Below the pieces are notes generated by a model, which ran no database searches, was not told the origin of the DNA, and saw nothing but the letters and a program-made list of their open reading frames with translations. Below are positions 1 to 17,716 of a DNA stretch of 64,000 nucleotides, in pieces; positions within the stretch are counted from its first letter, which is position 1; each line of letters starts with the position of its first letter. Source of the DNA: Methylobacterium sp. Leaf108 (GTDB taxonomy: Bacteria > Pseudomonadota > Alphaproteobacteria > Rhizobiales > Beijerinckiaceae); assembly GCF_001423265.1 (NCBI RefSeq), contig NZ_LMND01000035.1, forward strand, positions 126,639-190,638, given 5' to 3'. A program made the translations under genes and the position numbers.

Positions 1-1
1 C

Positions 2-589: not shown

Positions 590-591
590 CC

Positions 592-3162: not shown

Positions 3163-3175
3163 GAGGCTTTACCGA

Positions 3176-3559
3176 TCAGGGCTTGGCGATGTGCCATGCA
3201 CCGTTGAGGAATCCGTCGCCGGTGATGTCGCCGGGCTTCGTATCCTTGGCGAAGGTGTAGAGCGGCTTGCCCTTGTAGGCCCACTGCATCGTCCCGTCGT
3301 CCCGCGTCACCATCGTCCAGTCGCCACTAGCAGCCGAGCCGGAGGCGGCCATCAGTGCCGGCCAGTTGGCGGCGCAGGGGCCGTTGCACATCGACTTGCC
3401 GCCCATGTCCTTGTCGAAGGTGTAGAGGGTCATGCTCTTGGAATCGACGAGCGCCGGCCCCTTGGCAGTCTCGGCCGTCATCGCAGGCGCAGCGGCCTGG
3501 GCGGCGACGGCGGAGAAGGCGAAGGCCGCAAAGGCAGCGCGGATCAGCATGGTGTGCAT
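3176..3559 (-). CDS. Exported COG4315-type repeat protein
   Basis: This 127-residue protein has a clear signal peptide (hydrophobic residues 5-21, cleavage near AQA-AAP). The mature part holds the two copies of the motif seen in COG4315 proteins (the former secreted repeat of unknown function): LYTFDKD with CNGPCAANWP, then PLYTFAKD followed by GD-TGDG and W. The start at 3559 has a GGAGA ribosome-binding site; a second ATG nine bases in is possible. It is the promoter-proximal gene of the operon with the ECF sigma factor, so it may be both target and signal-related partner of that sigma system (inference). Molecular function is unknown. Confidence 0.85.
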   Translation of the reverse strand: MHTMLIRAAFAAFAFSAVAAQAAAPAMTAETAKGPALVDSKSMTLYTFDKDMGGKSMCNGPCAANWPALMAASGSAASGDWTMVTRDDGTMQWAYKGKPLYTFAKDTKPGDITGDGFLNGAWHIAKP

Positions 3560-4183
3560 GAGTGAGGTCTCCGGCGGTCGACCATGACCGCATCGGGAGA
3601 GATGCCGAACGGGCGCGTCTATTCCACTGACACACGAAAAAGATTGGTGACGTCAGCGTGACCACCGACTCGTCCTCAACCACGGCATACGGCCGTCACC
3701 CAGGAGCAGTCAGAGGAATGATGCGGCGGCGTCACCACTCTGAAAGGCGGAGATCCGAGATCATGCCCTCGCACGGCGAGATCGACTGCAACGTCTGCTT
3801 TCAAGAGATACGTTGGCTTGCTCTTACGGCGTAGTTGGGTCGCAAGCGGCGATTCAGCCCCTGCGGGCCGGAGGTCCGTTGTTGGCGCAAAGCGGTAATG
3901 ATGTCCGCAACGTAATGGGGCCGCTGGCAAGGACTGTGCTGGAGGTCGCGGGGGCAGGTGTAGGCGCCATCCGAACACCAGTAGGCGGATGCGACCGCTG
4001 AAGTTTCAAACACTTGACCTCGCCTCATGCGGCCAGCATTTGGTGATGGTGTGCGGCGGGTGGTGCCGGTGCTGTCGGATACCAGGCCTGGGACGGCCGG
4101 CCGTCGTCGGTCGTATCGGTAGTTGGGTAGGGCGACGAAGGTAGGCGGGCGACCGCGTGTTGGCCGTCCTTGTCGGTACCTTG
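3560..4183. other. 624-base gene-free stretch
   Basis: I see no convincing gene. Open frames exist on both strands but they lack ribosome-binding sites, normal composition and recognisable sequence. The part nearest 3559 should hold the promoter of the exported-repeat/ECF operon. A 28-base element at 3993-4020 recurs at 10065-10092. From about 3700 onward the composition shifts away from the backbone, marking the left edge of the accessory region. Confidence 0.5.
3993..4020 (+). repeat. 28-bp direct repeat, left copy
   Basis: This element matches 10065-10092 in the same orientation at 25 of 28 positions; the shared core is TTTCAAACACTTG with GACCGCT before it. The two copies bracket the nuclease-like and PHP-ATPase genes. 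It could be an insertion footprint or a dispersed element of the genome. Confidence 0.6.
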
Positions 4184-4843
4184 CTATGCAGTCGCGAGGT
4201 GTAGGTTGAGCTGATGCAGCCACCACTCCGTGAGCGCGGCAAGTTCGTTGGGGATGGTTGGCGACCACCAGAACTCCGGAATGAGGCGGGTTGCGATGGT
4301 CAGCCGTGTCTCCAGTCGCCGGCCGCTGCAGTGGATGGGTTCAAGGATGAAGCTTAGCAGTAACGTGCTGTCGTGGCCTCCATGCTCCGGCTCGTCCGCG
4401 GTGCTGACCGTGAGGTGATAGGGTGATCTGTGAGCTGTCTGAAGCGGCCGACGCTCTTCAACGTGGCCGTCGGCGCTGCACACTCGCATGGCACTGTTGG
4501 CATGCGGGCGTAGGTCGAGTTCGACTGCGACGAAGCTGGGTTGCTGTAGATCGAGGGCTGGCTTGAATTCCTGCAGATCGACGAGTGCGCGGCTCAGCAT
4601 GCCAGGCGTCGTTCGGAAGCGCTGGCTTGTGACGTAGGTGTCAAAGGTCTGGCGGTTGGGTGATGTGAGCACGGTGGTGACGTCCGAGAGAAGACGCCGC
4701 ACCGCATGCTGGGCGGACAAACCGTAGTGGGGAATAAGAAGTGCCGCTACCATGAAGTAGAGGCTGTAGGGCAGGAGAAGTGTGGCTGCGTCCGCCCTGA
4801 CATCGCGGGCGGCGTCGCCGGTCGTTGGGCCGGCTTTGGCCAA
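4184..4843 (-). CDS. Protein of unknown family, start uncertain
   Basis: The longest reading is 219 residues from a TTG at 4843 that sits directly after an in-frame stop and has no ribosome-binding site. A later start, for example the Met at about residue 32 (FMVAALLIPHYG), is possible, as is a frameshift near 4850. Coding character is good: acidic and aromatic residues are evenly spread and the end (PEFWWSPTIPNELAALTEWWLHQLN) looks conserved. No known domain is recognised and there is no signal peptide; the hydrophobic stretch near residues 22-38 is short. It lies 183 bases downstream of the PD-(D/E)XK-like gene on the same strand, so the two may be co-transcribed. Confidence 0.5.
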   Translation of the reverse strand: MAKAGPTTGDAARDVRADAATLLLPYSLYFMVAALLIPHYGLSAQHAVRRLLSDVTTVLTSPNRQTFDTYVTSQRFRTTPGMLSRALVDLQEFKPALDLQQPSFVAVELDLRPHANSAMRVCSADGHVEERRPLQTAHRSPYHLTVSTADEPEHGGHDSTLLLSFILEPIHCSGRRLETRLTIATRLIPEFWWSPTIPNELAALTEWWLHQLNLHLATA

Positions 4844-5026
4844 TTAATCGATGAAGGCGTGTCTGGATATAGCTTCGCTCTGCAGCGGTCTGGTGATGCC
4901 ATCAAGCGCTCGTGAGGGTGGTCACTGTGGCTAAACATTCCTCAGGCGTTGTGAGTCCCGGCGTGCTGTATTGCCGGGACCCAATGTTGGGGTGGTAATG
5001 GTGCGGGCCGCGGCGCCCGGAGGTTG

Positions 5027-6172
5027 TCAGGCGGCCTTGCGGTGCGGTTGTGCTTCGGGACGGGATCGTTTCCGGTTGGCGTTCCGGGGATGCACGAACA
5101 GGTTGGTCTCGTTCGGGGCGGCATCGAGCTGCAGTTCGCCATCGACCAGCCACCAGTCGGTGTAGCGGCGGTGCAGTGCGCGGGCGTGGTCCGTGAGGCC
5201 CGTTGCCGCGAGTGCCGTGATCGCCTGCTCCAGCGTGCGGGGGATGAATGGGATCGGTCCACTCGCCGGGTCACGAAGGTGGCGGGTGTAGGTGGTGGCC
5301 GCAGTCGCGGTGAGTGTGTTGTGCTGGGGGGCAATGAGTACCAGCACGGCTCGGTCGGCAAAGCCCTGGTCGAGGATGGTGGCGGCGAGGCAGTGCTGGC
5401 GGAACAGCTGCTGGCAGGGGTTGGCGTGCAACGTGGCGGCGGCGGGGTCCACGAAGAGGTTTGTGGTCGGGGCGATGGCGGCGTAACGGGGGCTGAAGCG
5501 CGGCACCGTCTCGAAGCTGCTCTCGCTGTACTTTACTTCGATACCGACGAAGAGCCGCTCGCCTGTCTCACTGCGCCCACGCACGGCGACGTCGAAGGCG
5601 GTGCCATCCTGGGTGAAGCGGGCATCGCCGCGGCCCGGGCTGTGCTCGAAGGCGAGGTCCGTGACCTCCTTCATTAGCCCTGGGATGAACTCCCCCATGA
5701 AGCGGGTGGCCAGGACGAGGTCGCGGGCGAGCAGGCCGAACAGGTTGAAGGTCAGGGGCTGCGACGAAAGCAGGTTGGTCTCGAGGCGGTCCAGGTCATA
5801 AACGGCGCCTGGTTCACGGTAGGCCAGGGCCCGGGCCACGACCGGGACGATGCCCGGGTGGATGAAGTTGGTGCCCTGCTCGCCTGCCGCGGTGCCGATG
5901 CGGGAGCCGAGGCGACGGCGGCGCTTGCCCGAAGAATCGGTGTGGTAGCCGATGGGCAGGTCGCGGTCCTCACGCCAGAGGGCCTGGAGGAACCGGGCGG
6001 CGGCCTTGAACCGGTGGTCGGCGCGCACGAAGACGTGGTGGTGGCGCCGGGCGGCCTCGGGGATGAGCGGTACGCGCTCGATCGGGCCCAGATCGCCTGG
6101 GTCGATGAGGTCATGAAGGTGTGTGGGGACAGCGTCGCCGGTCCCTGCGGGGACAGGAAGGTAGTTGACCAT
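5027..6172 (-). CDS. PD-(D/E)XK nuclease-like protein (PGN_0703-type)
   Basis: This 381-residue protein has a motif set fitting a PD-(D/E)XK endonuclease fold: Glu176 in FEHSPGRGD, Asp194 in TAFDVAV, and Glu212-Val-Lys214 in GIEVKYSES. The segments FLQALWRE, LPIG and NLLSSQPLTFNLFG are those of the family annotated as PGN_0703-type putative restriction endonucleases. I recall that family from memory and have not searched for it. DNA cleavage is inferred from the fold; no methyltransferase partner is present here. The ATG start is clear. Its neighbours are an unrecognised gene downstream and a divergent PHP-ATPase gene about 630 bases upstream. GC is lower than in the backbone, suggesting transfer. 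Confidence 0.75.
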   Translation of the reverse strand: MVNYLPVPAGTGDAVPTHLHDLIDPGDLGPIERVPLIPEAARRHHHVFVRADHRFKAAARFLQALWREDRDLPIGYHTDSSGKRRRRLGSRIGTAAGEQGTNFIHPGIVPVVARALAYREPGAVYDLDRLETNLLSSQPLTFNLFGLLARDLVLATRFMGEFIPGLMKEVTDLAFEHSPGRGDARFTQDGTAFDVAVRGRSETGERLFVGIEVKYSESSFETVPRFSPRYAAIAPTTNLFVDPAAATLHANPCQQLFRQHCLAATILDQGFADRAVLVLIAPQHNTLTATAATTYTRHLRDPASGPIPFIPRTLEQAITALAATGLTDHARALHRRYTDWWLVDGELQLDAAPNETNLFVHPRNANRKRSRPEAQPHRKAA

Positions 6173-6806
6173 GGTGGTTGGTGTCCTGACGGCGACCGCG
6201 GTGCTGCGGTCAGGTCAGGGTTCCCGGGTCGGCCGGCAGGATGAACACGGGCTGGATTGGGTCTGAGCGTATGCCTGTCCGGGCACTTGGAACGGCGAGG
6301 TATGCCAGCCGGCTGTCAGTGTGGTGGTCGGCGTCGTGTGGTGCAACGCGTTGGTGGTGGTCGTAGGCATCGTGGCCATCGTCATCTGGCGGTCGTGGTG
6401 TGTACGTCTTCTTCCTGCTCGCCGGGGGTGTTTTTTATCTGAAGATTTAGCGGTTCAGAAAGCCGAGAGACATGCGATTGCCTTGCGGGCCTTCGCAGGG
6501 ATGCGCTGGTGTGTCTTTTCATTCCTACGTGGTTGAGCCATTTCCGAAGTTGGCCCTTTGCAGAAGCTAGGATCGTCCGCTTTCGGGCACCTCTATACGC
6601 TCGGTCGAACAGCGGTAGTTGGCCGGAAGTGGACCGACCGCTTCCGTAATTCAGAATGAAGGAAGGGGCTTTTGGCTCGACGCCTCAAAATCCCTCTCGC
6701 TTATTCATAAATTCCAATCTCCGGTTGCCTTGATCTCCAGTTGCGCCGAAAATGAGATGCGGCACATTGGTGAGCCGTCCTGTCGGCACACGTTCGGAAA
6801 GTCCCC
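6173..6806. other. 634-base divergent intergenic region
   Basis: This AT-richer stretch lies between the nuclease-like gene and the PHP-ATPase gene, which are divergent. Small open frames on the plus strand have poor composition and no recognisable sequence. It presumably holds both promoters; no clear operator or terminator is visible. Confidence 0.5.
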
Positions 6807-9794
6807 TTGCTCGCTACGCTCAATTCTGGATCCCGTTGGCACCGATGGGACCCCCACATTCACGCACCCGGCACCATCATGAACGACCAATTCCGGGGCG
6901 AGAACCGCGCCTCGGAATACGTGCGCCTGTTGAACGAAGCGTCGCCAGAGATCCATGCAATCGGCGTTACCGACTACTACGTCCTGGACACCTATGAAGA
7001 GATCTGCGCACGGCGCGCCGAGCTCTCCCGCTGCGCTCTGATATTCCCAAACGTTGAGCTTCGACTGGGCCTTCAGACCGTGAAGGGCCGGTTCATCAAC
7101 CTACACTTGCTGATCTCGCCGGATGGCGCAGATCACGTTGCCTCGGCCAAGCGTTTCTTAGAGCAGCTTACCTTCGAGGCACACGGTGACACCTATCGAT
7201 GCCGGCGCGACGAGCTAATAAGGTTGGGCCGCGCTGCTGATCCATCAAAAGTGTCCGAGCTTGCTGCGCTGTCGCACGGCGCCCTACAGTTCAAGGTTGA
7301 GTTCAGTCAGCTCCGTACCGCGTACGGGAAGAGCGATTGGGCGAACACGAATGTCCTCATCGCGGTTTCTGGGACCGAGACCGACGGGACTTCAGGCATG
7401 CGGAACGCTGCCGACCAGACGTTGCGCGAGGAGATGGAGCACTTCGCCGATGTCATCTTCGCTAGCAGCGGCGCCCAGCGTGACTTCTGGCTCGCCCGAA
7501 AGACCGCGAGTGAGGGCGAGCTGAAGCAGCGTTACCGCGGCCTGAAGCCCTGTCTCCACGGCTGCGATGCACATGCTCTGGCAACCGTCGGCCTACCTGA
7601 CGCGGACCGCTACTCCTGGATCAAGGGCGATGTCCGGTTTGATGCCTTGCGGCAGGCCTGCATCGATCCCGCGGGGCGCACCTATGTCGGATCGGCCGCG
7701 CCGGTTGGCAGTGTAGGGTCGGAAGTCATCAGGCGGGTTGAGATCCTGAACACAGATTGGGCGCAGACTTCGGTGATCGAACTCAACCCTGGACTTGTGA
7801 CAATCATCGGCGCGCGAGGGTCTGGGAAGACCGCGCTGGCTGACATGATCGCTGCCGGTTGCGACGCGCTTCCAAACCGCTTGAGCCCGGCCTCTTTCAT
7901 GGCGCGCGCTCAGAACCGCAATGTCCGAACCGGAGCGCGGTCTAATCTACTGGGAGGGGCTGCGGTCCGGATCGAGTGGGATGACGACGACATTGTTGAG
8001 CGTCCGATTGACGGAACCTGGGTAGCATCATCAAGCGATTTCCCCCGCGCGCGATACCTCTCCCAGCAATTCGTCGAGGAGCTTTGTTCGTCTGACGGCA
8101 TGACGGACGAGCTGGTTGGAGAAATCGAACGCGTCATTTTCGCATCCCATTCGCTTGTGGATCGAGACGGCGCCATCAATTTCGACGATATGCGAGACGA
8201 AGCGACGGCCCGGTTTGCACAGGCGCGGAGGCGCGCAGAGGATGCCGTTGCCAATATATCCGAAGAGATTAACACCGAGCTGGAGAAGCAGCGGCAGCTT
8301 ACTGACTTGCAGGGGCATGCCAAACGGCGCGCGATAATAATCGAGTCCTTGGAGGCTGACCGCAAGAAACTGGTCACAACAGGCAGCGAGGATCGGGTGC
8401 AGCGTCTTGCCGAACTGACTGCAGCGGCCGACTACGCGCGAGGACAGATCAGGGCGTGGAACGCTCGGAAGAGTGCCGTTGCAATTCTGCAGGACGAGGT
8501 CAGGCATTTTCAGAACGTTGGCGCTCTGACGGCGCTGGCTCAATCCAAGGCGAGACATCGTGCTGCTGCTCTGGAAGAGACCGACTGGTCTGCATTCCTG
8601 CTTGAGTACGCCGGCGATGTTGATTCTACACTAACCAACCGGGCATCAGCCGCTCAGAAAAGTTCGGATAGTTGGCGGGGTAAGGCCGTCTCCGTCGTCG
8701 ACCTACGGACGGCCTTGATCGCGCCTAACGCTGACCTCTCGCGGGAAAGTTTGGCAATCCTTGACGCCGAGATCGGCCGTATCCAAGCGCAGATCAACAC
8801 GGACTCGACCACTGCGGCGCGGTACGCGGCGGTTTCAAAGAAAGTTGACGAGGAGCGAGCTGCTCTGAACCAGCTCAACGACAGGATCACGGACGCTCTG
8901 CAGGCGAGTACCCGCGCCGGCGAACTGCGAAACACCAGGAACGAGACCTATCGAGAGATTTTCAAGTCAATCGTTCAAGAACAGGAGACGCTCCGGGGGC
9001 TGTACGCCCCACTGACCGAGCGTCTCTCAGCCGCCTCGAAAACGGTTGCAAAGCTCTCGTTTTCCGTGAACCGTAACGTTGACCTTGATAGCTGGGCCGC
9101 TAAGGGCGAGAAACTTTTCGATCTAAGGGGAGGAGACTTCAAGGGTCGTGGCACACTCCGAGAGTATGCCGAGAAAGCCCTGCGATCAGCTTGGGAAGAA
9201 GGCGACGAGCAGGCCGTGTTCGGGGCGATCTCCGATTTCCTATCTCAACATCAGCGGACCCTGCTAGATCTAGCCAACGTCCCACGTGCCGACGCGGCGA
9301 ATTTCCGGCACTGGGCCAAGCAGTTCGCTAAATGGCTGTACGGGACCTCGCACATCACACTGACCTACAGCATCGATTATGACGGCATCGACATCCGGCA
9401 CTTGTCGCCGGGGACCCGCGGTATCGTTCTCCTGCTGCTGTACCTTGCTCTAGACGACACCGACACGCGGCCGCTAATTATCGATCAACCAGAAGAAAAT
9501 CTTGATCCGAAAAGCATTTACGACGAGTTGGTTCAGCTTTTCATGACAGCGAAGAATATGCGTCAAGTAATTATGGTGACTCACAACGCCAATCTTGTGA
9601 TAAATACAGACGCCGATCAGATCATAGTTGCTAAAGCTGGACCGCATAAGCGTGGTCATCTTCCGCCTATTACCTACAACTCTGGCGGACTCGAAGAACT
9701 GGGTATCCGCACAGCTGTGTGCGGTATTCTTGAAGGCGGCGAGATTGCCTTCAAGGAGCGTGCGCGACGGCTGCGTGTCGCTTTGGATAGGTAG
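6807..9794 (+). CDS. PHP-domain / SMC-like AAA ATPase (TrlF/Ppl type)
   Basis: This is a 995-residue fusion. Residues 1-290 form a PHP-type metal-dependent phosphoesterase domain (WDPHIHAPGT with His17 and His19; GVTDYY; PNVELRL; HGCDAH near 250). Residues 320-995 form an SMC/Rad50-like ATPase: Walker A GARGSGKT at 335-342, a long coiled-coil region about 455-780, an ABC-like signature LSPGTRG near 866-872, Walker B LIIDQPEENLD near 890-900 and the switch MVTHNAN. NCBI names such proteins TrlF-family AAA-like ATPases, and the PHP-ATPase architecture matches the single-gene anti-phage system Ppl. Nucleic-acid cleavage gated by ATP is inferred. The start is a TTG; no better start fits the conserved N-terminus. 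GC is low relative to the backbone. Confidence 0.85.
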   Translation: MLATLNSGSRWHRWDPHIHAPGTIMNDQFRGENRASEYVRLLNEASPEIHAIGVTDYYVLDTYEEICARRAELSRCALIFPNVELRLGLQTVKGRFINLHLLISPDGADHVASAKRFLEQLTFEAHGDTYRCRRDELIRLGRAADPSKVSELAALSHGALQFKVEFSQLRTAYGKSDWANTNVLIAVSGTETDGTSGMRNAADQTLREEMEHFADVIFASSGAQRDFWLARKTASEGELKQRYRGLKPCLHGCDAHALATVGLPDADRYSWIKGDVRFDALRQACIDPAGRTYVGSAAPVGSVGSEVIRRVEILNTDWAQTSVIELNPGLVTIIGARGSGKTALADMIAAGCDALPNRLSPASFMARAQNRNVRTGARSNLLGGAAVRIEWDDDDIVERPIDGTWVASSSDFPRARYLSQQFVEELCSSDGMTDELVGEIERVIFASHSLVDRDGAINFDDMRDEATARFAQARRRAEDAVANISEEINTELEKQRQLTDLQGHAKRRAIIIESLEADRKKLVTTGSEDRVQRLAELTAAADYARGQIRAWNARKSAVAILQDEVRHFQNVGALTALAQSKARHRAAALEETDWSAFLLEYAGDVDSTLTNRASAAQKSSDSWRGKAVSVVDLRTALIAPNADLSRESLAILDAEIGRIQAQINTDSTTAARYAAVSKKVDEERAALNQLNDRITDALQASTRAGELRNTRNETYREIFKSIVQEQETLRGLYAPLTERLSAASKTVAKLSFSVNRNVDLDSWAAKGEKLFDLRGGDFKGRGTLREYAEKALRSAWEEGDEQAVFGAISDFLSQHQRTLLDLANVPRADAANFRHWAKQFAKWLYGTSHITLTYSIDYDGIDIRHLSPGTRGIVLLLLYLALDDTDTRPLIIDQPEENLDPKSIYDELVQLFMTAKNMRQVIMVTHNANLVINTDADQIIVAKAGPHKRGHLPPITYNSGGLEELGIRTAVCGILEGGEIAFKERARRLRVALDR

Positions 9795-10268
9795 CGATTT
9801 GTCGAGCGAATTAGCAATTGATAGCAAACATCTAATGGCTGCATTAGAGGAAGCGCCATGACTTTGCCGACGTTTGATTTTGGCGTGAAGCTGAACGTTC
9901 GGATTTTGGCGATGATCTGCTGTCGGCTTGTGGCGTAAAGCGGTTTCTATATTCCCCTTGTGCCAGCTTATTTAGTTGCCGCAGGTAAGTCTGTCCCCGT
10001 CGGGGCTGAGCGACAGCTCGCGGGTGTCCGTGATGCCGCTATCCCGGCAGAAGATGGATACGCGGACCGCTCAACTTTCAAACACTTGGCCTGGGCTGTT
10101 TCGGGTAGCTTTCTTGGATGTGGGCGAGACGGTTGACAGTCATCCCGTCGGGAGCTTGTCACCTTTGTTCTCGCTGACCAAATAGTAGGAGGGGGTCGGT
10201 CTGTCGGAAGGACGTTCGCCATGAATTCTGCGATGATGCTCCCTTGAGGGCGCTCCTCTGCCTTGGGC
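9795..10268. other. 474-base gene-free stretch with the right-hand direct repeat
   Basis: This lies between the ends of the PHP-ATPase gene and a minus-strand gene, so the genes converge. No convincing coding frame is present. The AT-rich first 150 bases have the composition of the ATPase gene; from about 9960 GC rises toward the backbone level. It contains the second copy of the 28-bp direct repeat. Confidence 0.5.
10065..10092 (+). repeat. 28-bp direct repeat, right copy
   Basis: This is the second copy of the element at 3993-4020, differing at three positions. It lies 271 bases beyond the end of the PHP-ATPase gene, near the place where GC composition returns toward that of the neighbours. 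Confidence 0.6.
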
Positions 10269-10733
10269 TCAGCTGCGGTAGTGCACGTCGGATCGCACGA
10301 CGTGGCGCTGTTCAGTCAGGCCAAATCGCCGGACGAGTTCGGCGACCGTGTCGGGCCGTTGAAGCCGCCGGTCGGCGTAGAGGGTGAACAACACGGCCGG
10401 CCGCATGTAGACGACACGCCCGCGCGGGAAGACCTCGTACTCATGCGCAGCGATTGCGGCGGGCAGGCCCTGGCGGCGCAGAGCCGTGGCTCCGAGCCGC
10501 CGCCATCCCTCCCAGACTTCGTTGTGCCCGTGGGGATGGGTGAGGCAGTCGCCGTAGCTTTCCGCTTCCGCCAAGGGTGTGCGGTGAGTGACGAGCACGG
10601 TTCTGTCGTCTTCCGGCACGCCCCAGAAGATGCCGACCGACGGTACGGTCGCCGCCTTTTTCTCCGGGCATTCCGGTCTGCGTTCAGCCTCGAAGTGCAT
10701 GGAATGTCTCTCTGATCGGCGGGTGGTACTCAT
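10269..10733 (-). CDS. Protein of unknown function
   Basis: This 154-residue protein has no signal peptide or recognised domain. The central part (SVGIFWGVPEDDRTVLVTHRTPLAEAESYGDCLTHPHGHNEVW, residues about 33-75) looks well structured; the rest reads PRGRVVYM and VAELVRRFGL. The ATG overlaps the stop of the exported-protein gene upstream in an ATGA arrangement, so the pair is translationally coupled; a second Met at residue 12 (MHFEAERR) is an alternative start. I recall similar uncharacterised proteins in Methylobacterium but cannot name a family. It is the last gene of the minus-strand group 12327-10269. Confidence 0.7.
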   Translation of the reverse strand: MSTTRRSERHSMHFEAERRPECPEKKAATVPSVGIFWGVPEDDRTVLVTHRTPLAEAESYGDCLTHPHGHNEVWEGWRRLGATALRRQGLPAAIAAHEYEVFPRGRVVYMRPAVLFTLYADRRLQRPDTVAELVRRFGLTEQRHVVRSDVHYRS

Positions 10734-11266
10734 GGCCTCAGGATGTCCTCGGGCCGTGTGATCGGCGTCTCCGCCGGTCCTTTCTCCTCCTGCTCCGGGT
10801 AGCCGAACCGGCGGGCAAGGTCGGTGGTGTCCTCTTGGCTGCCTGCGCCGATCGCATGGCAGACGGCGAAGTAGATCGTCGCCGCCGTCTCCAGCACGCC
10901 CGGCGGTCCGAACGCGGCGTTGATCGGCAGGTACTCCGCGGCCCAGCGACCCTGTGCATCGCGATCGATAAGTGCCGGCTTCGACTTGGAGCAGAAGACG
11001 TAGCTGGTTCTCGCTTGCCCGCCCTGCCGCTGTGTCTTGCGGGCGTAGTTGCTGTCCGGGTGGTGGGACTGCCAGCCCTCGAGCACGACCTTGAACAACG
11101 CCCCCATCTTCGCGGTGCCGGCCAGATCTTTCTCCTCGACGCTGAACCAGTTGCAGGTGCTCATGTGGCAGCGCCCGGGGATCAGCTCGGCCGCGTTGGT
11201 CGGGGCAGGTGTCAGGCTTAGGCAGGCGAGGAGGGCCGCGAGCTTTCGTGTCGTTGGTCTGTGCAT
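10730..11266 (-). CDS. Exported protein with four cysteines, unknown function
   Basis: This 178-residue protein starts at the ATG at 11266. A signal peptide is clear (residues 1-25, cleavage near TNA-AEL). The mature part has paired cysteines (GRCHMSTCNW) and later single ones (VFCSKSK, AVCHAIG), suggesting disulfides in the periplasm. No known domain is recognised. The frame extends upstream of the chosen start, but that part reads as non-coding. It is coupled by a 4-base overlap to the next gene, and a related-looking exported protein gene lies 44 bases upstream. Function is not predictable from sequence. Confidence 0.7.
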   Translation of the reverse strand: MHRPTTRKLAALLACLSLTPAPTNAAELIPGRCHMSTCNWFSVEEKDLAGTAKMGALFKVVLEGWQSHHPDSNYARKTQRQGGQARTSYVFCSKSKPALIDRDAQGRWAAEYLPINAAFGPPGVLETAATIYFAVCHAIGAGSQEDTTDLARRFGYPEQEEKGPAETPITRPEDILRP

Positions 11267-11310
11267 GGGGCCGCTCCAATCATGGTGCTGAAAGTGCTCG
11301 TGGGGCATCG

Positions 11311-11805
11311 TCAAAACACGAACTTCCAGTCGAAGCGGCGAACACGAGCGGCCGTGTCGGTGAGGTGGGCCGTGCACAGGATGACGATGTCCTGCTTGAT
11401 CGGCGTTGTCCCCGCCCGCACCGGGTTCGGCTTGACCATGAAGCACAGGCCGGTGGCCGGCCAATGCCGTTGGCTGTCGGGGTTCCCCACCGGCATCAGC
11501 GTCACCGAGGTCAGGCGCAGGGCGTAGCCGTAGGCGTTCTCCATGTCGGGTGCCTGGGCGGTCGCGAACGCCACCACCGTCTTCACGCCGGCCTTGGCCT
11601 CGTCGTAGCCGGTGACGAGTGTGATCTCGCCCTGGCCGTCGTCGACGAGCCGGAAGTCGTGGTTGCAGCGACAAACCTGGCCGTCGACCTTGAGGTCGAG
11701 GCACAACCCCGCCTTTGTCTCGTCGACCGGCGGATTGGCGTGGGCCGCCGGGGCGGCAAGGAGCAGGGCAAGCGTCAGGGTTGCACGCGGCAGCAGGGTG
11801 CGCAT
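11311..11805 (-). CDS. Exported Cys-containing protein, unknown function
   Basis: This 164-residue protein has a strong signal peptide (residues 1-24, cleavage at AHA-NPP). The mature domain carries GLCLDLKVDGQVCRCNHDF near the N-terminus and further cysteines in GLCFMVKP and VILCTAHLTD, so it probably forms disulfides in the periplasm. No family is recognised. It belongs to a run of four minus-strand genes (12327 to 10269), three of which encode exported proteins with several cysteines, which suggests an envelope role for the group (inference). Confidence 0.7.
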   Translation of the reverse strand: MRTLLPRATLTLALLLAAPAAHANPPVDETKAGLCLDLKVDGQVCRCNHDFRLVDDGQGEITLVTGYDEAKAGVKTVVAFATAQAPDMENAYGYALRLTSVTLMPVGNPDSQRHWPATGLCFMVKPNPVRAGTTPIKQDIVILCTAHLTDTAARVRRFDWKFVF

Positions 11806-11907
11806 GGGGCGGCTCCGTTTCGGAGGCAGGAGAGAGGGTGGACCGGGGGGCGGCCAGTCGCGGCAGTGGACGAACGCGGCTGTGGTCGCGCTCGGCCCTA
11901 GTCCGGA

Positions 11908-12327
11908 TCAGCGGCGCTTGAGCGCTCCGGCGAAATCGCAGGACATTCCGTGGTAGTCGCTGCAGTTCTGCGCCGACATCGTCACGCGGCTGCGATCGGG
12001 GCTGAAGCGCAGCGTCACCTCGCAGGTCTGCTCGCTGCCCTCACCCTTCTGGCGCAGTCGCAGGGTGCCGGGATTGATCAGGGTGGCCAGTCCACCCACG
12101 CTGCCGGTGCACTCGTTCGGCACGGCGGTGTCGGTGGTGACGTAATACTCGGGCCGGTTCGGTTCGGTCGAAACGTCGGCGACGCGCAGGGTGAGGAGCC
12201 CTTCGCCGCGGCCCTGGAAGCGGCCTTCGAGACGCGGTTCAGATTGGGCCTGCTCGGAGAAGCACAGCAGAGCCAAGAGGGCGGCGTGGAAGGTGCCGCG
12301 GGTGAGGGCGGGAGTGGGCAGCGACAT
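11908..12327 (-). CDS. Exported small protein, unknown function
   Basis: This 139-residue protein has an N-terminal hydrophobic segment (about 13-25) and a likely cleavage site at AQS-EPR. The mature part contains LTLRVADVSTEPNRPEYYV, NECTGSVGG, EQTCEVTLRFSPD and NCSDYHGMSC, giving four cysteines, a possible two-disulfide beta-rich fold. No recognised domain is present. It is the first gene of the four-gene minus-strand group, with 102 bases to the next gene. The start is an ATG 16 bases inside a slightly longer intergenic region without a strong ribosome-binding site. Confidence 0.65.
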   Translation of the reverse strand: MSLPTPALTRGTFHAALLALLCFSEQAQSEPRLEGRFQGRGEGLLTLRVADVSTEPNRPEYYVTTDTAVPNECTGSVGGLATLINPGTLRLRQKGEGSEQTCEVTLRFSPDRSRVTMSAQNCSDYHGMSCDFAGALKRR

Positions 12328-12405
12328 GATGACGAAGTCCCGTCGGGGCTCGAACGAGCCGGGACTAGGGATTCACGTAGACCCCCCTCGGAATTTACAG
12401 CTGAG

Positions 12406-12448
12406 CGCAGATTGTGGGTGCGGCTGGCGGTCGCATCCACAATCTGCG
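12406..12448. repeat. Strong inverted repeat (hairpin) below the nuclease module
   Basis: This has perfect 12-base arms, CGCAGATTGTGG (12406-12417) and its reverse complement (12437-12448). The stem extends by four more pairs (TGCG/CGCA) across a single mismatch, around a 9-base loop. It lies 19 bases beyond the stop of the PD-(D/E)XK-like gene. There is no U-run on either side, so it is not a textbook terminator; it could be a terminator, a protein-binding palindrome or a mobile-element remnant. Confidence 0.7.
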
Positions 12449-12467
12449 AGCGTGTCGAGACGATTAG

Positions 12468-13511
12468 CTACGGTCGCCGGAAGGCGTTGCTGGTGCCCGC
12501 GCCCGGGTTGCCGATGGCCCGGACTGCGAGACTGAACGGCTCTGCCTGCAGTCGGTTGAGGTGCCCGCCGAGGATGCCATTGCGCTGGTTGGCGTCGAAG
12601 CCGAACACGACGAGCCGTGGGCGCGGGTCGACCCGCAAACACCGCTTTCCCTTGGCGACTTCTGCTGCCAACGGATCGCGCCGCCAGAGATCGGCCTCCG
12701 ATACGCCTGTGGTTCCCTGCACCCGCTGGCGCAGGGCGTCGAGCCGAGTGAGGTCTTGGCACAGCGCCTGGTAGCCGGCGACGAGCCGATCGGCTTCCCG
12801 GGTCAGGGTCTCTGTGTAGCGCGCCACCTGCTCGACGATCGCTGGCACGTTGTCCGGCGCGGCGCGCAGTTCTGGATTCGCGGCGATCTTAGCCTCGTGG
12901 AACACCAGCCACGCCTCGTCTGGGTTGCCCCTCTCCTCCAGGCTCGCCACGTCGAGCCGGTCCTGCCTCTGGGTTGGGGACGCGACTGCCGTGCCGTCTA
13001 GTAGCGCCGCGTCGGCCTCGACACCCTCGTTGTTGTGCTCGTCGTTCCCCGTGGTGGTGTTGCCGGGTGTGGAACCCGTCAGCGCAATCTCGACATCGAT
13101 CACGTTGGTGGCGTTGCGCAGCAGCCGGTGCAGGCCAGTCTTCTCCAGGCCTGCCAGTGCGGAAGCGGCCCGAAGCATCTCGGCCAAGGTCGCGGGACCG
13201 GCATAGTCCGTCCATACGGCGCTGGCCGGGTCGATCCCGAAGCCCCCTGCCGGGTCGAGCCGAACCGTCGTTTGGCGCTGGCGCAGGAGATACTTGGCGT
13301 GCGTCTCCGCCGTGACCGTGCCGTTCGGGAAGGTGACGCGGAAGATCGAGGCGCCGCGGTGGTAGACGTTCACTGCCTCGCGCCGCACCGCCAGGATCAG
13401 GTCGGGGTGAGCGAGCACGTCCTGCCACCAACCTGCCCGTTCCGCCAAGGCCTCCAGGGCGTCGATGAAGCTGGGGCTCAGGGCCCGGAAAACGGAAACT
13501 GGATTATTCAC
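12468..13511 (-). CDS. PD-(D/E)XK nuclease-like protein in RNase J-like module
   Basis: This is a 347-residue protein from a GTG whose bases overlap the stop of the upstream gene (GTGA); an in-frame TTG 18 bases earlier is less likely. The central part carries the signature of a PD-(D/E)XK nuclease: DVEIALTG, then Asp187 in RLDVASLEE, then Glu206-Ala-Lys208 in VFHEAKIAANPELR, followed by a helix QVARYTETL. A low-complexity acidic linker (about 150-180, GNTTTGNDEHNNEG) precedes it, and the C-terminal domain ends with PRPRLVVFGFD and GGHLNRLQ. I do not recognise a named family. Its coupling to an RNase J-like protein suggests the two act together on nucleic acid (inference). Confidence 0.7.
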   Translation of the reverse strand: MNNPVSVFRALSPSFIDALEALAERAGWWQDVLAHPDLILAVRREAVNVYHRGASIFRVTFPNGTVTAETHAKYLLRQRQTTVRLDPAGGFGIDPASAVWTDYAGPATLAEMLRAASALAGLEKTGLHRLLRNATNVIDVEIALTGSTPGNTTTGNDEHNNEGVEADAALLDGTAVASPTQRQDRLDVASLEERGNPDEAWLVFHEAKIAANPELRAAPDNVPAIVEQVARYTETLTREADRLVAGYQALCQDLTRLDALRQRVQGTTGVSEADLWRRDPLAAEVAKGKRCLRVDPRPRLVVFGFDANQRNGILGGHLNRLQAEPFSLAVRAIGNPGAGTSNAFRRP

Positions 13512-14758
13512 GCTGCACACTCCCACCAAGTCCCGTCCTGTTCGATGCGCACGCTTGGTCCGAACAGCGCCGGGAACTGCTCGGGTGCGAAGGTGTGAAT
13601 GGGTACGAGCCGGCGCGGGCCGATCGCCTCGACGAGGCGTCTGAGGTCCGGGATGCTTGCGTGCCCCGAGGTGTGGGCGTGAGTGAGTGGGATGGCACGG
13701 GCGGCTAGGTCAGCCGCGAGTGCCTGCCCTCGCGGCTGGCGCAGGTAGCCGTCCCACTGTGACCAGATCGCGCGTGCGTCGGTGAGGCACCCGGCCCGGT
13801 CGAGGTCGGGCAGCAGCGAGTGGCGGAACAGAAGGGCGGCCCGCGGTGCCAGGGTGGCGAGGTCCTCCGCGTAGATGCGGTTCCTGCCGTGCCGTTCGAT
13901 TAGGTCGAACCGGTTGGTCCTCTTGATGCGGACGCGCTGGTGGTGGGGCACGAAGACGGCGACGTTCGGCCAGTCGGATTGTGGGATGCGCGGATTGCCG
14001 GTCGCAGCCAGGACCTCGGCGGCGTAGAGGTCGATGACGAGGGTCCGGCCGGCACGCTTGCAGGCACGGTAGAGTGAGACCACGCGATCGATGTTCTGGG
14101 CCGAGGCCGCGACCAGGGCGAGTCCCACGGTGTCCTCGAACAAGTCGACGAAGCGGTCCTCGATCTCTACCTCGGTCGGGAAGGTGCGGTTGTCGTCGAG
14201 CCGGCCGAGGCTTGAGCCTTCCATCAGCAGGGTGTCGATGTCTTGCGGCGGCTCGCGCAGCAGTCGCTCGAACAGCGCGCCCTTGCGCCCGTGCCCGCGT
14301 AGGTCGCCCGAGTACAGCAGGCGCTGTCCGCCTGCCTCCACCAGCAGGGCGTAGGCATCGTAGGCCGAGTGGTCGACGAGGATGGGGGTAACCGTGAACG
14401 GTATGAAGGTGAGCGGCTGGCGGTCTGTAAACGTGATGGTGTTGGTGGGCACGTGGCAATCGGGGACGAAGGCGAATGCCGCCTGCAGAATACGAAGGGT
14501 GGCAGCGCCGAGCGCCACCGGCAGGTCCGGCCCGGCGAGGTGACTGAGGCCGATGTGGTCGCGGTGGCCGTGGCTGAGTACGAGAGCGAGCAGATCTGCG
14601 CCGCCGGTTAGACCATCGATCACCGGGTGGCGGCTCGTGTCCTCAGGGTCCCCGTCCAGTGGTAGGCCGAAGTCCAGTAGAAGGCGGGAACCTTCGTGCT
14701 CCAGCTCGACGCAACTGCCGCCGATCTCGTGCGCGCCGCGATGGATGCGCACCCGCAT
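13508..14758 (-). CDS. RNase J-like MBL-fold / beta-CASP metallohydrolase
   Basis: This 416-residue protein starts at the ATG at 14758, which places the conserved RIHRGAHEIGGSC at the N-terminus (a GTG at 14779 is an alternative). Metallo-beta-lactamase motifs are present: SHGHRDHIG (about 71-79, zinc ligands), VDHSAYDAY (about 132), YSGDLR (about 152) and a second-half HTSGHAS (about 355) plus VPIHTFAPEQF, as in RNase J and other beta-CASP nucleases. It lacks the C-terminal domain of housekeeping RNase J (roughly 550 residues), so it is not that enzyme. RNA or DNA processing is inferred. It is coupled by a 4-base overlap to the PD-(D/E)XK-like gene and divergent from an XRE regulator. Confidence 0.85.
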   Translation of the reverse strand: MRVRIHRGAHEIGGSCVELEHEGSRLLLDFGLPLDGDPEDTSRHPVIDGLTGGADLLALVLSHGHRDHIGLSHLAGPDLPVALGAATLRILQAAFAFVPDCHVPTNTITFTDRQPLTFIPFTVTPILVDHSAYDAYALLVEAGGQRLLYSGDLRGHGRKGALFERLLREPPQDIDTLLMEGSSLGRLDDNRTFPTEVEIEDRFVDLFEDTVGLALVAASAQNIDRVVSLYRACKRAGRTLVIDLYAAEVLAATGNPRIPQSDWPNVAVFVPHHQRVRIKRTNRFDLIERHGRNRIYAEDLATLAPRAALLFRHSLLPDLDRAGCLTDARAIWSQWDGYLRQPRGQALAADLAARAIPLTHAHTSGHASIPDLRRLVEAIGPRRLVPIHTFAPEQFPALFGPSVRIEQDGTWWECAA

Positions 14759-14836
14759 CGAAATGAAGTCCCCATACACCGCACTGATGGCGTGACGGGG
14801 ATAACCGTCTCAAGTCAGCGTCTCACGGCAATTGTG

Positions 14837-14850
14837 TCGAACATATTCGA
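14837..14850. promoter_or_regulatory. Candidate operator palindrome TCGAA-CATA-TTCGA
   Basis: This short palindrome (5-base arms, 4-base centre) lies in the gap between the RNase J-like gene and the XRE regulator gene, 37 bases before the regulator start and 79 bases before the divergent gene. Position and symmetry fit a binding site for a dimeric XRE repressor, but a single short palindrome can occur by chance. Confidence 0.35.
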
Positions 14851-14886
14851 TGGTTTCAGCCTGGGCAAGCTGGTCGCGTCCGAACC

Positions 14887-15147
14887 ATGGACGGACGAGC
14901 CCGCGTGGCGTGGCATCTGCGACGATTGCGGGTTGAACGGGGGCTTTCTCAGGAAGCGCTTGCCGTCGATGCTGGCGTGGACCGCGGCTACGTGAGTGGG
15001 ATTGAGCGGCGCAGCTTCAATCCCACGATCGACGTATTAGATCGCCTTGCTGTTGCCCTACGGGTCGACGTGGCCGAGTTTCTGGTGCGTCCAGCCGAAG
15101 GTGATCAGCCTCCGCTGCCCCTCAGACCGGGACGCCGTCGAGATTGA
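14887..15147 (+). CDS. XRE-family helix-turn-helix regulator
   Basis: This 86-residue protein is almost wholly a Cro/CI-type helix-turn-helix: LRRLRVERGLSQEALAVDAGVDRGYVSGIERR and NPTIDVLDRLAVALRVDVAEFL (residues 11-65). It is short enough to be a single-domain DNA-binding regulator, usually a repressor of the adjacent genes. It is divergent from the RNase J-like/nuclease pair, with a small palindrome in the shared gap, as expected for control of a restriction-modification, toxin-antitoxin or defence module. The ATG start is preceded by a weak ribosome-binding site. The tRNA-Ser gene follows about 180 bases downstream. Confidence 0.88.
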   Translation: MDGRARVAWHLRRLRVERGLSQEALAVDAGVDRGYVSGIERRSFNPTIDVLDRLAVALRVDVAEFLVRPAEGDQPPLPLRPGRRRD

Positions 15148-15251
15148 TTGCCGGGAAAAGCCTGAGCTTTAGCGACTTGCGGAGGATGCGAGACGAGATG
15201 CAGGGTTCGACCGTGGAAGCCCGTCGATGTCCGCTTATGTTCGTGATCGTT

Positions 15252-15275
15252 ATTGGGGCCACCATTGGGGCCATG
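15252..15275. repeat. 12-bp tandem repeat in AT-rich tRNA-proximal gap
   Basis: Two near-identical 12-base units (ATTGGGGCCACC, ATTGGGGCCATG) are followed by an AT-rich tract (15285-15325) that runs up to the 3' end of tRNA-Ser. The abrupt fall in GC here and the tRNA position are typical of the edge of an integrated element, but no integrase gene or second tRNA end is visible in the window. Confidence 0.5.
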
Positions 15276-15325
15276 TAAGAGACGGTCAAATTTTATTAAC
15301 TAAATCAAGAACTTACAGGTACATT

Positions 15326-15415
15326 TGGCGGAAGGGGTGGGATTCGAACCCACGGTGGAGTTGCCCCCACGGCGGTTTTCAAGACCGCTGCCTTAAACCA
15401 CTCGGCCACCCTTCC
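15326..15415 (-). tRNA. tRNA-Ser (anticodon UGA)
   Basis: On the minus strand the 90 bases fold as a class II tRNA: acceptor GGAAGGG/CCCTTCC, D-arm with GAGTGG, anticodon stem GCGGT/ACCGC with loop CTTGAAA (anticodon TGA), a long variable arm (CGTGGGGG...CTCCACC), T-arm GTGGG-TTCGAAT-CCCAC, discriminator G and an encoded CCA. It reads UCA serine codons. The gene sits between the accessory region (lower coordinates, at its 3' end) and the backbone, the usual place for tRNA-targeting integration. Confidence 0.97.
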
Positions 15416-15499
15416 GGAGCGCAGGCCGCCCGGACATCGCGTCTCTACGCCCAAACCGCCGGGACGGAAATCGGTATTTCCCGGCGGCGGGACGAGCGC

Positions 15500-17716
15500 T
15501 CAGGACAGGCTCTTCAGGCGATCGAGGAGCGGGCGGTCGTGGAGGACCGCCAGGCGCTCCTTCGGCGACAGCCAGGCCGTCGCCTCGTCCAGGGTCCGGG
15601 CCTCGGCGAGCTTGGCCGCCGCCAACGTCCGGTCCGGATCGATGGCGCCACGGGAACGCGGGCTGGCCGGGGGCAGCATCAGGGCATGGGCGGCCGCCAG
15701 GTGCGCGTCGGCGTGGATGGCGGCGAGCGCGGGGGCGTCGTCGAGGCCCATGGCGGCGTTACGCCGGGCGAGGCTGCCGGCGGCGGTGGCCACGGCGGGG
15801 GGATCGCGCTCCTCCGGGGTCATCAGGAGCCCGAGGCGCTTGAGGCCGAGCCCCCAGGCGAGTTGCCCGCTCGCCCAGGAGATCGGGATGGCCAGCACCA
15901 GGCCGAGGATGGTCGGCGACATCCACAGGAACAGCGAGGTGGCGATGGCGAAGGCCGCGACCCCCGTCACCAGGCCCAGCGCCATGTGCCAGCGGTGGCG
16001 GCGCACGATGTCCGAGAACGGGATCGAGCCGTCGTCGCGCCGCTGCGGGTTCCAGCCGGTGTCGCGGCCCGCCAGGATCTGGAAGACCGAGCCCGACTGG
16101 ATCAGCATCGCGATGGGCGCGATGAGCGCCGACAGCAGGGTCTCGATCAGGCTCGAGAGCACCAGCCGGAGCGCGCCGCCGCTGGCCCGGCGCACCGGCC
16201 CGTCGAACAGGGCGAGGAGGAGGCCGAGGAGCTTGGGCGCCAGCAGGATGCCCATGGTCAGGCCGAAGAGCTGGAGCGCGCGCACCGGGTCGAACCGCGG
16301 CCAGTTCGGGAACAGGCCGGAATCGCCGGAGAAATAATCGGGCTGGATCGTGGCCGTCTGCAGCACCAGCGCGATGCCGACCACGAGCTGGGCGAGCCAG
16401 AGCGGGGAGGCGACGTAGCCGGCGATGCCGGTGGCGAAATGCTGGCGCGAGGCCGCCCGCAGGCCGGCAGCGCCGATGATGCCCGAGTGCTGGAGGTTGC
16501 CCTGCGCCCAGCGCCGGTCTCGCACAGCCACGTCGATGAGAGAAGGCGGGCTCTCCTCGTAGGAGCCCGGCAGGGTCGGCAGCATCGTCACGCTCCAGCC
16601 GGCGCGCCGGATCAGCGCCGCCTCGACGAAGTCGTGGGACAGGACGTGGCCGCCGAACGGCGGCTTGCCGGGCAGGTCGGGCAGGCCGCAGGCCTGCGCG
16701 AAGGCGCGGGTGCGGATGATGGCGTTGTGGCCCCAGTAGTTGCCGTCCGACCCAGACCAGGCCGAGAGGCCGGTGGCGATCACCGGCCCGTAGATCCGGG
16801 CGGCGAACTGCTGCACGCGGGCGAACAGGGTGTTGCGGTTGATGATGAGCGGCAGCGACTGGACGATGCCGGCGTCCGGGTCCGCCTCCATGGCGGAGGC
16901 GAGCGCCACGATGCAGGGGCCGCTCATCAGGCTGTCGGCATCGAGCACCAGCATGTGGTCGTAGGAGGCGCCCCAGCGGCTCACGAAGTCGCCGATGTTG
17001 CCGGCCTTGCGATGATGGTTCTTGGCCCGGTGGCGGTAGTACAGGCGCGCCTCGGGTCCGAGGCGCTCGCGCAGAGCCAGGAAAGCGCGCTCCTCGGCGA
17101 TCCAGGCGTCGCCCTGGGTCGAATCCGACAGCACGAACCAGTCGAAGGCGGCGCCGTGGCCGGTGGCCTCGACCTCGGCCCGCATCGCCTCGATGCCCGC
17201 GAAGGTGCGGGCGGTGGCCTCGTTGTAGACCGGCATCACCACCGCGGTGCGTGTGGCGAGCGCCCCGGCCAGGGGTTTGTGGCGCGGTGCGCGCAACAGC
17301 ACGACGAACCCGAGGATCGCGCCCGTGAAGGCCAGCGCGATCCAGGAGAAGTTGAGGGTGAAGAGGACGAGCAGCACGTACTGCAGCGCCGTGGTGCCGC
17401 CTGAGACCGAGACCACTTCGTACATCTGCAGGGCGCCGTAGGCGGTCAGCAGTGCCGCGCCTCCAAACACGAAGGCGCGCGCCAGCCAGGGGCGGCGTTC
17501 GGGCCGGGCCGGGCGATGGCCGGAGCGCGGGTCCCAGGCGCCGAGGTCCTGCACCGGCATCGCCAGCGGTGCTTCCGGCGGCATCGCGTGATGGGCCTCC
17601 GGCGGGACGGCGGATGTCGCCTCGGTCGGCCTGGCCGGACCCGCCTCCGGGGGCGGGGCGGGATGCCGGTCGGCGTCGGAATGCGGGGGGGTCAGGGTGT
17701 CCAACGGTACAGCCAT
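15500..17716 (-). CDS. mdoH: Glucans biosynthesis glucosyltransferase OpgH (MdoH)
   Basis: This 738-residue inner-membrane enzyme polymerises UDP-glucose into the linear beta-glucan backbone of osmoregulated periplasmic glucans. After a proline-rich N-terminus, membrane segments occur at about 85-105 and 115-145, then a family 2 glycosyltransferase domain with VVMPVYNE, LSDSTQGDAW, DADS (DxD) and RDRRWAQGN (QxxRW-like), then several C-terminal membrane helices (about 435-620). The start at 17716 lies inside the end of the upstream opgG-type gene (25-base overlap), showing co-translation. A longer upstream frame exists but would run far into the opgG gene in another frame, so it is rejected. 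Confidence in the family is high. Confidence 0.93.
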   Translation of the reverse strand: MAVPLDTLTPPHSDADRHPAPPPEAGPARPTEATSAVPPEAHHAMPPEAPLAMPVQDLGAWDPRSGHRPARPERRPWLARAFVFGGAALLTAYGALQMYEVVSVSGGTTALQYVLLVLFTLNFSWIALAFTGAILGFVVLLRAPRHKPLAGALATRTAVVMPVYNEATARTFAGIEAMRAEVEATGHGAAFDWFVLSDSTQGDAWIAEERAFLALRERLGPEARLYYRHRAKNHHRKAGNIGDFVSRWGASYDHMLVLDADSLMSGPCIVALASAMEADPDAGIVQSLPLIINRNTLFARVQQFAARIYGPVIATGLSAWSGSDGNYWGHNAIIRTRAFAQACGLPDLPGKPPFGGHVLSHDFVEAALIRRAGWSVTMLPTLPGSYEESPPSLIDVAVRDRRWAQGNLQHSGIIGAAGLRAASRQHFATGIAGYVASPLWLAQLVVGIALVLQTATIQPDYFSGDSGLFPNWPRFDPVRALQLFGLTMGILLAPKLLGLLLALFDGPVRRASGGALRLVLSSLIETLLSALIAPIAMLIQSGSVFQILAGRDTGWNPQRRDDGSIPFSDIVRRHRWHMALGLVTGVAAFAIATSLFLWMSPTILGLVLAIPISWASGQLAWGLGLKRLGLLMTPEERDPPAVATAAGSLARRNAAMGLDDAPALAAIHADAHLAAAHALMLPPASPRSRGAIDPDRTLAAAKLAEARTLDEATAWLSPKERLAVLHDRPLLDRLKSLS

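Follow-up and report, generated by a model that had tools for sequence, protein, structure and literature searches.

The window, by which we mean the whole 64,000-nucleotide (nt) stretch analysed here from the 4.47-Mb genome of Methylobacterium sp. Leaf108, carries two overlapping genes on its minus strand that together appear to encode a nuclease system: P0002 (13508–14758, ATG start, 416 amino acids), a β-CASP enzyme of metallo-β-lactamase (MBL) fold resembling RNase J, and P0001 (12468–13511, GTG start, 347 amino acids), a nuclease of PD-(D/E)XK type. The two are coupled by the four letters GTGA at 13508–13511 of the same strand, which are at once the stop of the MBL gene and the start of the nuclease gene; the MBL frame has an alternative, longer GTG start at 14779, and the protein from this longer start was used in the family scans of P0002. 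Facing the pair on the plus strand is P0003 (14887–15147, 86 amino acids), an XRE-family regulator, and the gap between the divergent genes holds the palindrome TCGAACATATTCGA (14837–14850), followed by TGGTT. Just 3′ of the nuclease gene lies a minus-strand hairpin at 12406–12448, whose 17-nt arms (12406–12422 and 12432–12448) are 94% complementary and fold with −30.9 kcal/mol (z −4.6, equalled by none of 200 shuffles); it is probably a transcript end or stabiliser, and was not called terminator-like in a terminator-site scan. A tRNA-Ser (TGA) gene stands beside the module at 15326–15415 (minus strand). The first-pass annotation had described a three-gene module with a GTGA overlap, a palindrome in the gap shared with a divergent XRE gene, a strong hairpin after the last gene and a tRNA-Ser nearby, and every structural detail of that description is borne out; its pairing of MBL and nuclease stands as well, but the XRE gene is not a fixed member, being present in only some copies. 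In what follows L-numbers label loci and C-numbers clusters of neighbouring proteins, C1 being the P0001 family.

P0002 matches the Pfam families Lactamase_B_2 (1.2e-12) and RMMBL (8.5e-5), and reaches 51.1 bits against the RNase J model TIGR00649 (cutoff 400, best stretch 15–249); with this score and its 416 amino acids it falls outside the full-length RNase J family with its C-terminal domain. By these matches P0002 is RNase J-like but lacks the RNase J C-terminal domain, just as first proposed. In an alignment of 99 MBLs, picked as nearly full length and so favouring intact copies, D29, H63, H65, D67, H68, H130, D152, E180 and H366 are present in all 99, with HxHxDH at 63–68, and H388 (motif C) in 98; the MBL and β-CASP catalytic motifs of RNase J are thus present in the family. 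The motif names are those given for MTH1203 in PMC3095777, and their placement on this family is ours. The nearest solved relatives are EF2904 (PDB 2az4, 429 amino acids, deposited as a hypothetical protein), which of all solved structures matches the family profile best (2.7e-27), and RNase J, followed by CPSF73 and others. P0002 has the MBL and β-CASP motifs and the RMMBL motif in common with RNase J and EF2904, and differs from RNase J in scoring far below the cutoff, in lacking the C-terminal domain and in being coupled to a nuclease gene. According to PMC3095777, a histidine at motif C marks RNA-acting and a valine DNA-acting β-CASP enzymes, and because motif C is histidine here the substrate of P0002 would most likely be RNA. 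The housekeeping RNase J was considered as an identity for P0002 and set aside: a second, longer RNase J-like protein of the genome (L002, 570 amino acids, with 25% identity across part of the query at E 2.6e-4) is encoded separately, adjoining an open reading frame (ORF) that we read as biotin-ligase-like.

No Pfam family matches P0001 above its cutoff, and NCBIfam and PADLOC give no match at E ≤ 1; its identity is read from its motif and its model. The D-x18-E-x-K signature noted in the first pass is D187-x18-E206-A-K208, and R43, Y50, E141, R185, D187, E206 and K208 are invariant in all 38 aligned homologues. An AlphaFold2 model built on 34 sequences (predicted local distance difference test, pLDDT, 88.8; predicted template modelling score, pTM, 0.87) contains the α-β-β-β-α-β core and the D...(E/D)-x-K site of the PD-(D/E)XK superfamily, in agreement with the fold first suggested for this protein. 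A separate N-terminal domain (residues ~13–120) precedes the nuclease core (~121–310), whose elements are the helices 122–132 and 224–238 and the strands 137–143, 185–192, 199–209 and 299–303. In VIA-align, residues 20–131 match YjbR (Z 6.0), while the rest or most of the protein matches HamA (Z 5.5 over 179 residues, root-mean-square deviation 5.6), Cdn1 (5.0), FokI (4.8), Shedu (4.7), Can2 (4.7), Card1 (4.6) and BsoBI (4.5); a frataxin-like protein is mixed in with these, and small GTPases appear at Z 4.5 and below. The modest Z scores together with the invariant motif support a PD-(D/E)XK fold for the modelled protein, but not any specific relative.

Copies of the pair are found on plasmids, on chromosomes and in metagenome bins. 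From the contigs of bacterial and archaeal genomes we took the best 80 of at least 362 MBL relatives; by record title these span several phyla and include two archaea, the majority being metagenome bins. Assigned by hand, a C1 nuclease lies on the MBL's strand in 29 of the 80 loci: by longest ORFs, 19 overlap or touch the MBL gene, five lie within 150 nt and five farther away, up to 1.2 kb; one of the 29, that of L012, carries an internal deletion. Another PD-(D/E)XK-type protein is coupled to the MBL in 36 more, three of which have it next but one; a single gene intervenes in these three (L058, L072, L075) and in L047, L051 and L060 among the 29. Five loci are weaker cases (L031, L074, L081, L082, L084), and ten have no partner that we could find (L023, L030, L038, L055, L063, the first copy in L064, L068, L070, L076, L091). 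Among 72,556 plasmids, tblastn found the MBL in 13, and a C1 nuclease adjoins it, before or after, at six of the nine places fetched (Rhizobium, Ochrobactrum, Sphingomonas twice, Cupriavidus and Cereibacter). In the Cereibacter azotoformans plasmid pORIO1 (L008) the pair is followed by a metallophosphoesterase gene and stands amid Mu-type, Tn3, TniB and TniQ transposition genes.

Sampling blind to the partner gives the same result. Across 398 Pseudomonadota genomes drawn evenly, the MBL was found at E ≤ 1e-40 in nine, and all nine have a coupled nuclease: the window, seven more of C1 and one of C9. Conversely, among 61 nuclease-family ORFs, a count in which some places are represented twice, the fetched stretch lacks an MBL at only two independent places, L122 and L125, each of which still has a remnant of one. 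Within the class, the C1 nuclease occurs in four of 385 genomes, namely the window, L093 and L095 with an adjoining MBL, and L094/L125 with an MBL N-terminal remnant. The co-occurrence check proposed with the first annotation thus finds the homologues together and not apart, and the linkage of MBL and nuclease is plain. Divergence of the two proteins is correlated over 45 MBL–C1 pairs (r = 0.58, against 0.20 as the largest of 2000 permutations). In L161 (37–1911, minus strand) the MBL and the N-terminal part of the nuclease form one open frame of 624 amino acids with no stop between them, which ends at a stop inside the nuclease half, close to the edge of the contig. As L161 comes from a single draft genome, this copy may be broken or misassembled.

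Within the genus the pair is patchy and decaying. At E ≤ 1e-20 the MBL is found in 11 of 37 genomes including the window's, seven copies being full length or nearly so and four remnants. Twelve stretches from relatives (L111–L122) carry both MBL and nuclease in eight cases, with a divergent XRE gene also in four of them (L111, L112, L113, L115), and a tRNA gene lies within six of the 12 (tRNA-Gln in four, tRNA-Ser in two). Either half can persist without the other: the nuclease is full length beside an MBL remnant in L122, where its active-site motif is intact, and in L125, where only the MBL N-terminus is left, while a full-length MBL stands with an internally deleted nuclease in L012 and with no nuclease found in L011. 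The nuclease of L018 is cut by the contig end.

A phage module was considered and not adopted, there being no match to the MBL at E ≤ 1e-5 in 50,697 phage records and six viral contigs with it; of these, two have a C1 neighbour (L099, L100), L098 has a C3-type one and L101 a neighbour bearing the motif.

Further enzymes stand near the MBL in some loci. An ADP-ribosylglycohydrolase gene adjoins the C1 nuclease at L060:8684–9901 and L125:8214–8858 (Pfam 1.7e-75 and 1.9e-35), in L060 between nuclease and MBL. An arginine/agmatine deiminase-like gene (PAD_porph) is beside or near the MBL in L065, L070, L101 and L009, by Pfam in L101, and a DnaQ-like exonuclease cluster (C6) is near it in L035, L071, L064, L057 and L009. 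In L071 an RNase_T exonuclease domain and a region of PD-(D/E)XK type (by motif) share one ORF, and L035 joins C6 through that region.

What the first-pass annotation could not show is the exchange of the nuclease. The 36 non-C1 partners carry a D..(E/Q)xK-type signature (ExE-type in two) and fall into many families: C3 in ten, C9 in five, C30 with L029 in four, C29 in three, and smaller groups. Pfam names the partner in L090 RmuC and that in L033 PDDEXK_4, and finds no match for those of L041, L067 and L075; for 49 neighbours scanned, nuclease names are few among the families listed (25 of 42), with one weak PDDEXK_5. The strict pattern D..(E/D)xK is present in all 31 C1 neighbours. Outside C1 it occurs in 34 of 56 coupled neighbours, compared with 47 of 335 ORFs lying beyond 3 kb (p = 7e-13); both groups consist of ORFs of 200–550 amino acids from the same 92 loci, with the rows L001 (a copy of L092), L002 and L094 left out. 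In C3 the residues E93, D135 and E151-x-K153 are invariant, and a model (pLDDT 75.4, pTM 0.79) finds PD-(D/E)XK proteins as its best matches: Can2 (Z 8.8), McrBC chain N (8.0), FokI (7.6) and a Pyrococcus repair endonuclease (7.6).

Closely related MBLs can have partner families that show no relation to each other, as in L071/L075 (85% identical MBLs), L067/L069 (79%), L022/L041 (78%) and L053/L069 (73%). Since MBLs of 73–85% identity have undetectably related partners, the MBL looks like the constant core of the system and the nuclease like its exchangeable half. On a quick tree of the 99 MBLs, with partner labels assigned by hand, the C1 label needs at least 12 changes, of which starred branches force nine, where shuffled labels need 33 on average; all 18 partner labels together need 36. 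Profile–profile comparison links L029 to C30 (95%), L085 to C1 (91%), L065 to C1 (75%), C3 to C9 (72%) and L045 to C1 (59%), and more weakly C6 to C30 (43%), C3 to C29 (21%) and L085 to C29 (14%), others being at 11% or less and often in register at the motif; C2, C4, C5, C12, C13, C15, C31 and the PDDEXK_13-type C8 stay below 6%. As confident or fair links join some families only, we do not claim common descent of all partners.

P0003 matches HTH_3 (Pfam, 3e-14), and its best PADLOC models are control proteins of restriction-modification systems (7.5e-13). A P0003-like XRE gene faces the MBL in L013–L015, L111–L113 and L115, and stands beside the remnant in L120. The palindrome is conserved: in the aligned gaps of eight loci including the window, five show a perfect GGCTATAGCC, the window's form is TCGAACATATTCGA, imperfect versions stand in L115 and L120, and TGGTT on the XRE side is common to all eight. 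We therefore regard 14837–14850 as probably the operator of P0003, to judge from this conservation. Elsewhere a WYL-domain regulator cluster (C5) lies near the MBL in eight other loci, the L093 member being confirmed by Pfam.

The neighbourhoods are rich in defence models. Flanking proteins of the window and of 27 loci that are alphaproteobacterial by record title or belong to the window's class (134 of 276 ORFs scanned, one sampled ORF of the nuclease family in L064 being left out) reach 102 PADLOC models at E ≤ 1e-10, against seven for 133 control proteins (of 161 ORFs, from 17 arbitrary 15-kb stretches of nine genomes of the class). Among the 25 flank models listed are DpdF, GajB, PD-Lambda-1, a TIR-Argonaute partner, PDC-S26, PsyrT, type II methyltransferases, WYL and generic ATPase models; the controls give mad3, mad8, AriA, three RtcR models and HTH_VI.

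The pair goes unnamed in the models of Pfam, NCBIfam and PADLOC, and PADLOC-DB 2.0.0 has no model for either P0001 or P0002 at E ≤ 1. Our literature search, which covered titles and the starts of abstracts, found no description of it, although unpublished or subscription-only ones may exist; both results agree with the first-pass opinion that this is not a recognised, named defence system. HamA of Hachiman, SduA of Shedu, and Can2/Card1 are PD-(D/E)XK nucleases of defence systems, and all four match P0001 weakly in structure (Z 5.5, 4.7, 4.7 and 4.6), which may mean only a common arrangement; no sequence relation to P0001 was found, and the module has neither a helicase nor a CARF partner, no helicase of HamB type being found among its three proteins. 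Restriction-modification systems with a C protein likewise combine a restriction-like nuclease gene with a small divergent XRE gene resembling the PADLOC control proteins, but the second enzyme here is an MBL, and none of the three module proteins matches a methyltransferase. Cas14 of type VII CRISPR (NF045584) is another β-CASP protein in a prokaryotic immune context; P0002 matches it weakly at its N-terminus (24.5 bits, cutoff 800), and the other module proteins match no CRISPR family. According to PMC12799240, pairs of an MBL hydrolase and a trypsin protease occur in Hachiman, AVAST, Lamassu and DRT, so that there too an MBL-fold nuclease gene and a second gene have been repeatedly acquired in antiviral systems, and HamA carries a D-GEXK nuclease motif. 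There, however, the MBL is likened to ComEC, is a pro-enzyme cut by the trypsin-like protease and does not cleave RNA. The MBL of our module is of β-CASP, RNase J-like type, its partner is a PD-(D/E)XK protein with intact active-site residues, and neither P0001 nor P0003 matches a protease family of Pfam or NCBIfam, as the partner in a HamM-type pair would.

We put at about 60% the probability that the pair is an undescribed, horizontally moving two-gene nuclease system of defence type, in which a constant β-CASP MBL works with an exchangeable PD-(D/E)XK partner. That MBL and nuclease are one functional unit is, we believe, close to certain; that this unit serves defence against mobile DNA is supported indirectly and quite probable. 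The most economical division of labour, with the exchangeable half cutting DNA and the constant half cutting RNA, is a tentative proposal with the odds rather against it. Under that proposal, a repressor of XRE type, sitting on the palindrome in the divergent gap, would keep the pair low; on entry or replication of foreign DNA, from a phage or a plasmid, the PD-(D/E)XK half, with its own N-terminal domain, would recognise and cut that DNA; and the MBL half, presumably in contact with its partner, would then degrade adjacent nucleic acid, most likely RNA. The PD-(D/E)XK half would vary because it sets the target, and the natural exchange pairs with MBLs 73–85% identical make it directly testable which half does so. 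In its broadest form, which has slightly less than even odds, this would be a widespread bacterial and archaeal immune system that attacks DNA and RNA at once, its β-CASP RNase J-like core drawing exchangeable, target-setting partners from a dozen or more families of restriction-fold nucleases. It could be seen as a two-nuclease counterpart of CBASS or Lamassu, which also exchange their effectors, except that here every exchange would stay within one catalytic fold.

Several points weigh against this interpretation. Foldseek gives no match at E ≤ 0.001 with the model of either P0001 or C3, and the P0001 family has no solved structure related by sequence; models cover C1 and C3 only, many single partner families resting on a short motif and our reading of it. 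The partners in L045, L065 and L085 may be distant relatives of C1, in which case some of the tree's label changes could reflect divergence and not exchange. No partner was found in ten of the 80 loci, four of them at contig ends. The list of phyla may also be inflated by contamination, since the genome-contig loci come mostly from metagenome bins. The 102 models against seven are not a count of systems, since several may stand for one protein, and the controls were arbitrary and not matched for accessory regions. The XRE gene accompanies only some copies of the pair, and the RNA prediction for P0002 depends on one residue.

Of the other explanations, the one that survives best, though unlikely, is a module for DNA repair or end processing that travels on mobile elements and serves resection or plasmid maintenance, not defence. 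PD-(D/E)XK and β-CASP folds are both known in repair enzymes, and the plasmid and tRNA-linked locations would suit such a role, as would the DnaQ-like exonuclease added in some loci and joined in L071 to the PD-(D/E)XK-type region. Patchy presence and decay within one genus speak against it, as do the many defence models in the flanks, the repeated replacement of the nuclease, and the histidine at motif C, where DNA-acting β-CASP enzymes have valine (PMC3095777).

More doubtful still is a toxin–antitoxin or abortive pair, in which one enzyme would be the toxin, the other would neutralise it and the XRE protein would be in control. Overlapping genes, an XRE regulator and patchy presence are what one would expect of it. 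However, a type II toxin would be kept only with its antitoxin, and here each half is found full length without the other, the nuclease in L122 and L125 and the MBL in L011 and L012; that either half survives alone argues against such a pair, and partners of different families are ill-suited to a specific toxin–antitoxin fit. Very improbable is the view of P0002 as an accessory RNA-processing enzyme, a second RNase J besides the longer, separate L002, with the nuclease as hitch-hiker. Its RNase J-like sequence fits, but the coupled partners of PD-(D/E)XK type belong to many families, and the fused frame of L161 and correlated divergence also count against it. Preferred to all three remains the defence system of constant MBL and exchangeable nuclease.

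Finally, the surroundings of the module in the window differ in composition from the rest, the GC fraction being 0.53–0.69 across about 4–15 kb and mostly 0.69–0.76 beyond. Positions 1–16500 hold no direct repeats of at least 18 nt (seed 14), and the tRNA 3′ end is present in a single copy within the window, so no attachment-site pair is shown. Each flank was searched for in 31 genomes of the genus, among them the window's own, and has some match in all 31, though the left flank often matches in short pieces only; strong matches of the two flanks lie about 100 kb apart in genome G389 and about 690 kb apart in G283, so they do not define a clean empty site.

Some 3 kb away from the nuclease gene lies a gene for a TrlF-family AAA-like ATPase (6807–9794, plus strand; NF045780, 649 bits), with distant matches to Ppl and other defence ATPases, and farther on one for a PDDEXK_13 nuclease (5027–6172, minus strand; PF20796, 2.4e-101), relatives of which (cluster C8) are upstream of the MBL module in L013–L015, farther away in L016, and also present in L111. 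Past the hairpin is a group of small genes (10269–12327, minus strand), some with starts that read like signal peptides and none with a Pfam family above cutoff. In L111 three of these genes accompany the module in unchanged order, and in L122 they are close to the orphan nuclease; relatives of the gene at 10269 (cluster C2) are found near the MBL in ten loci.

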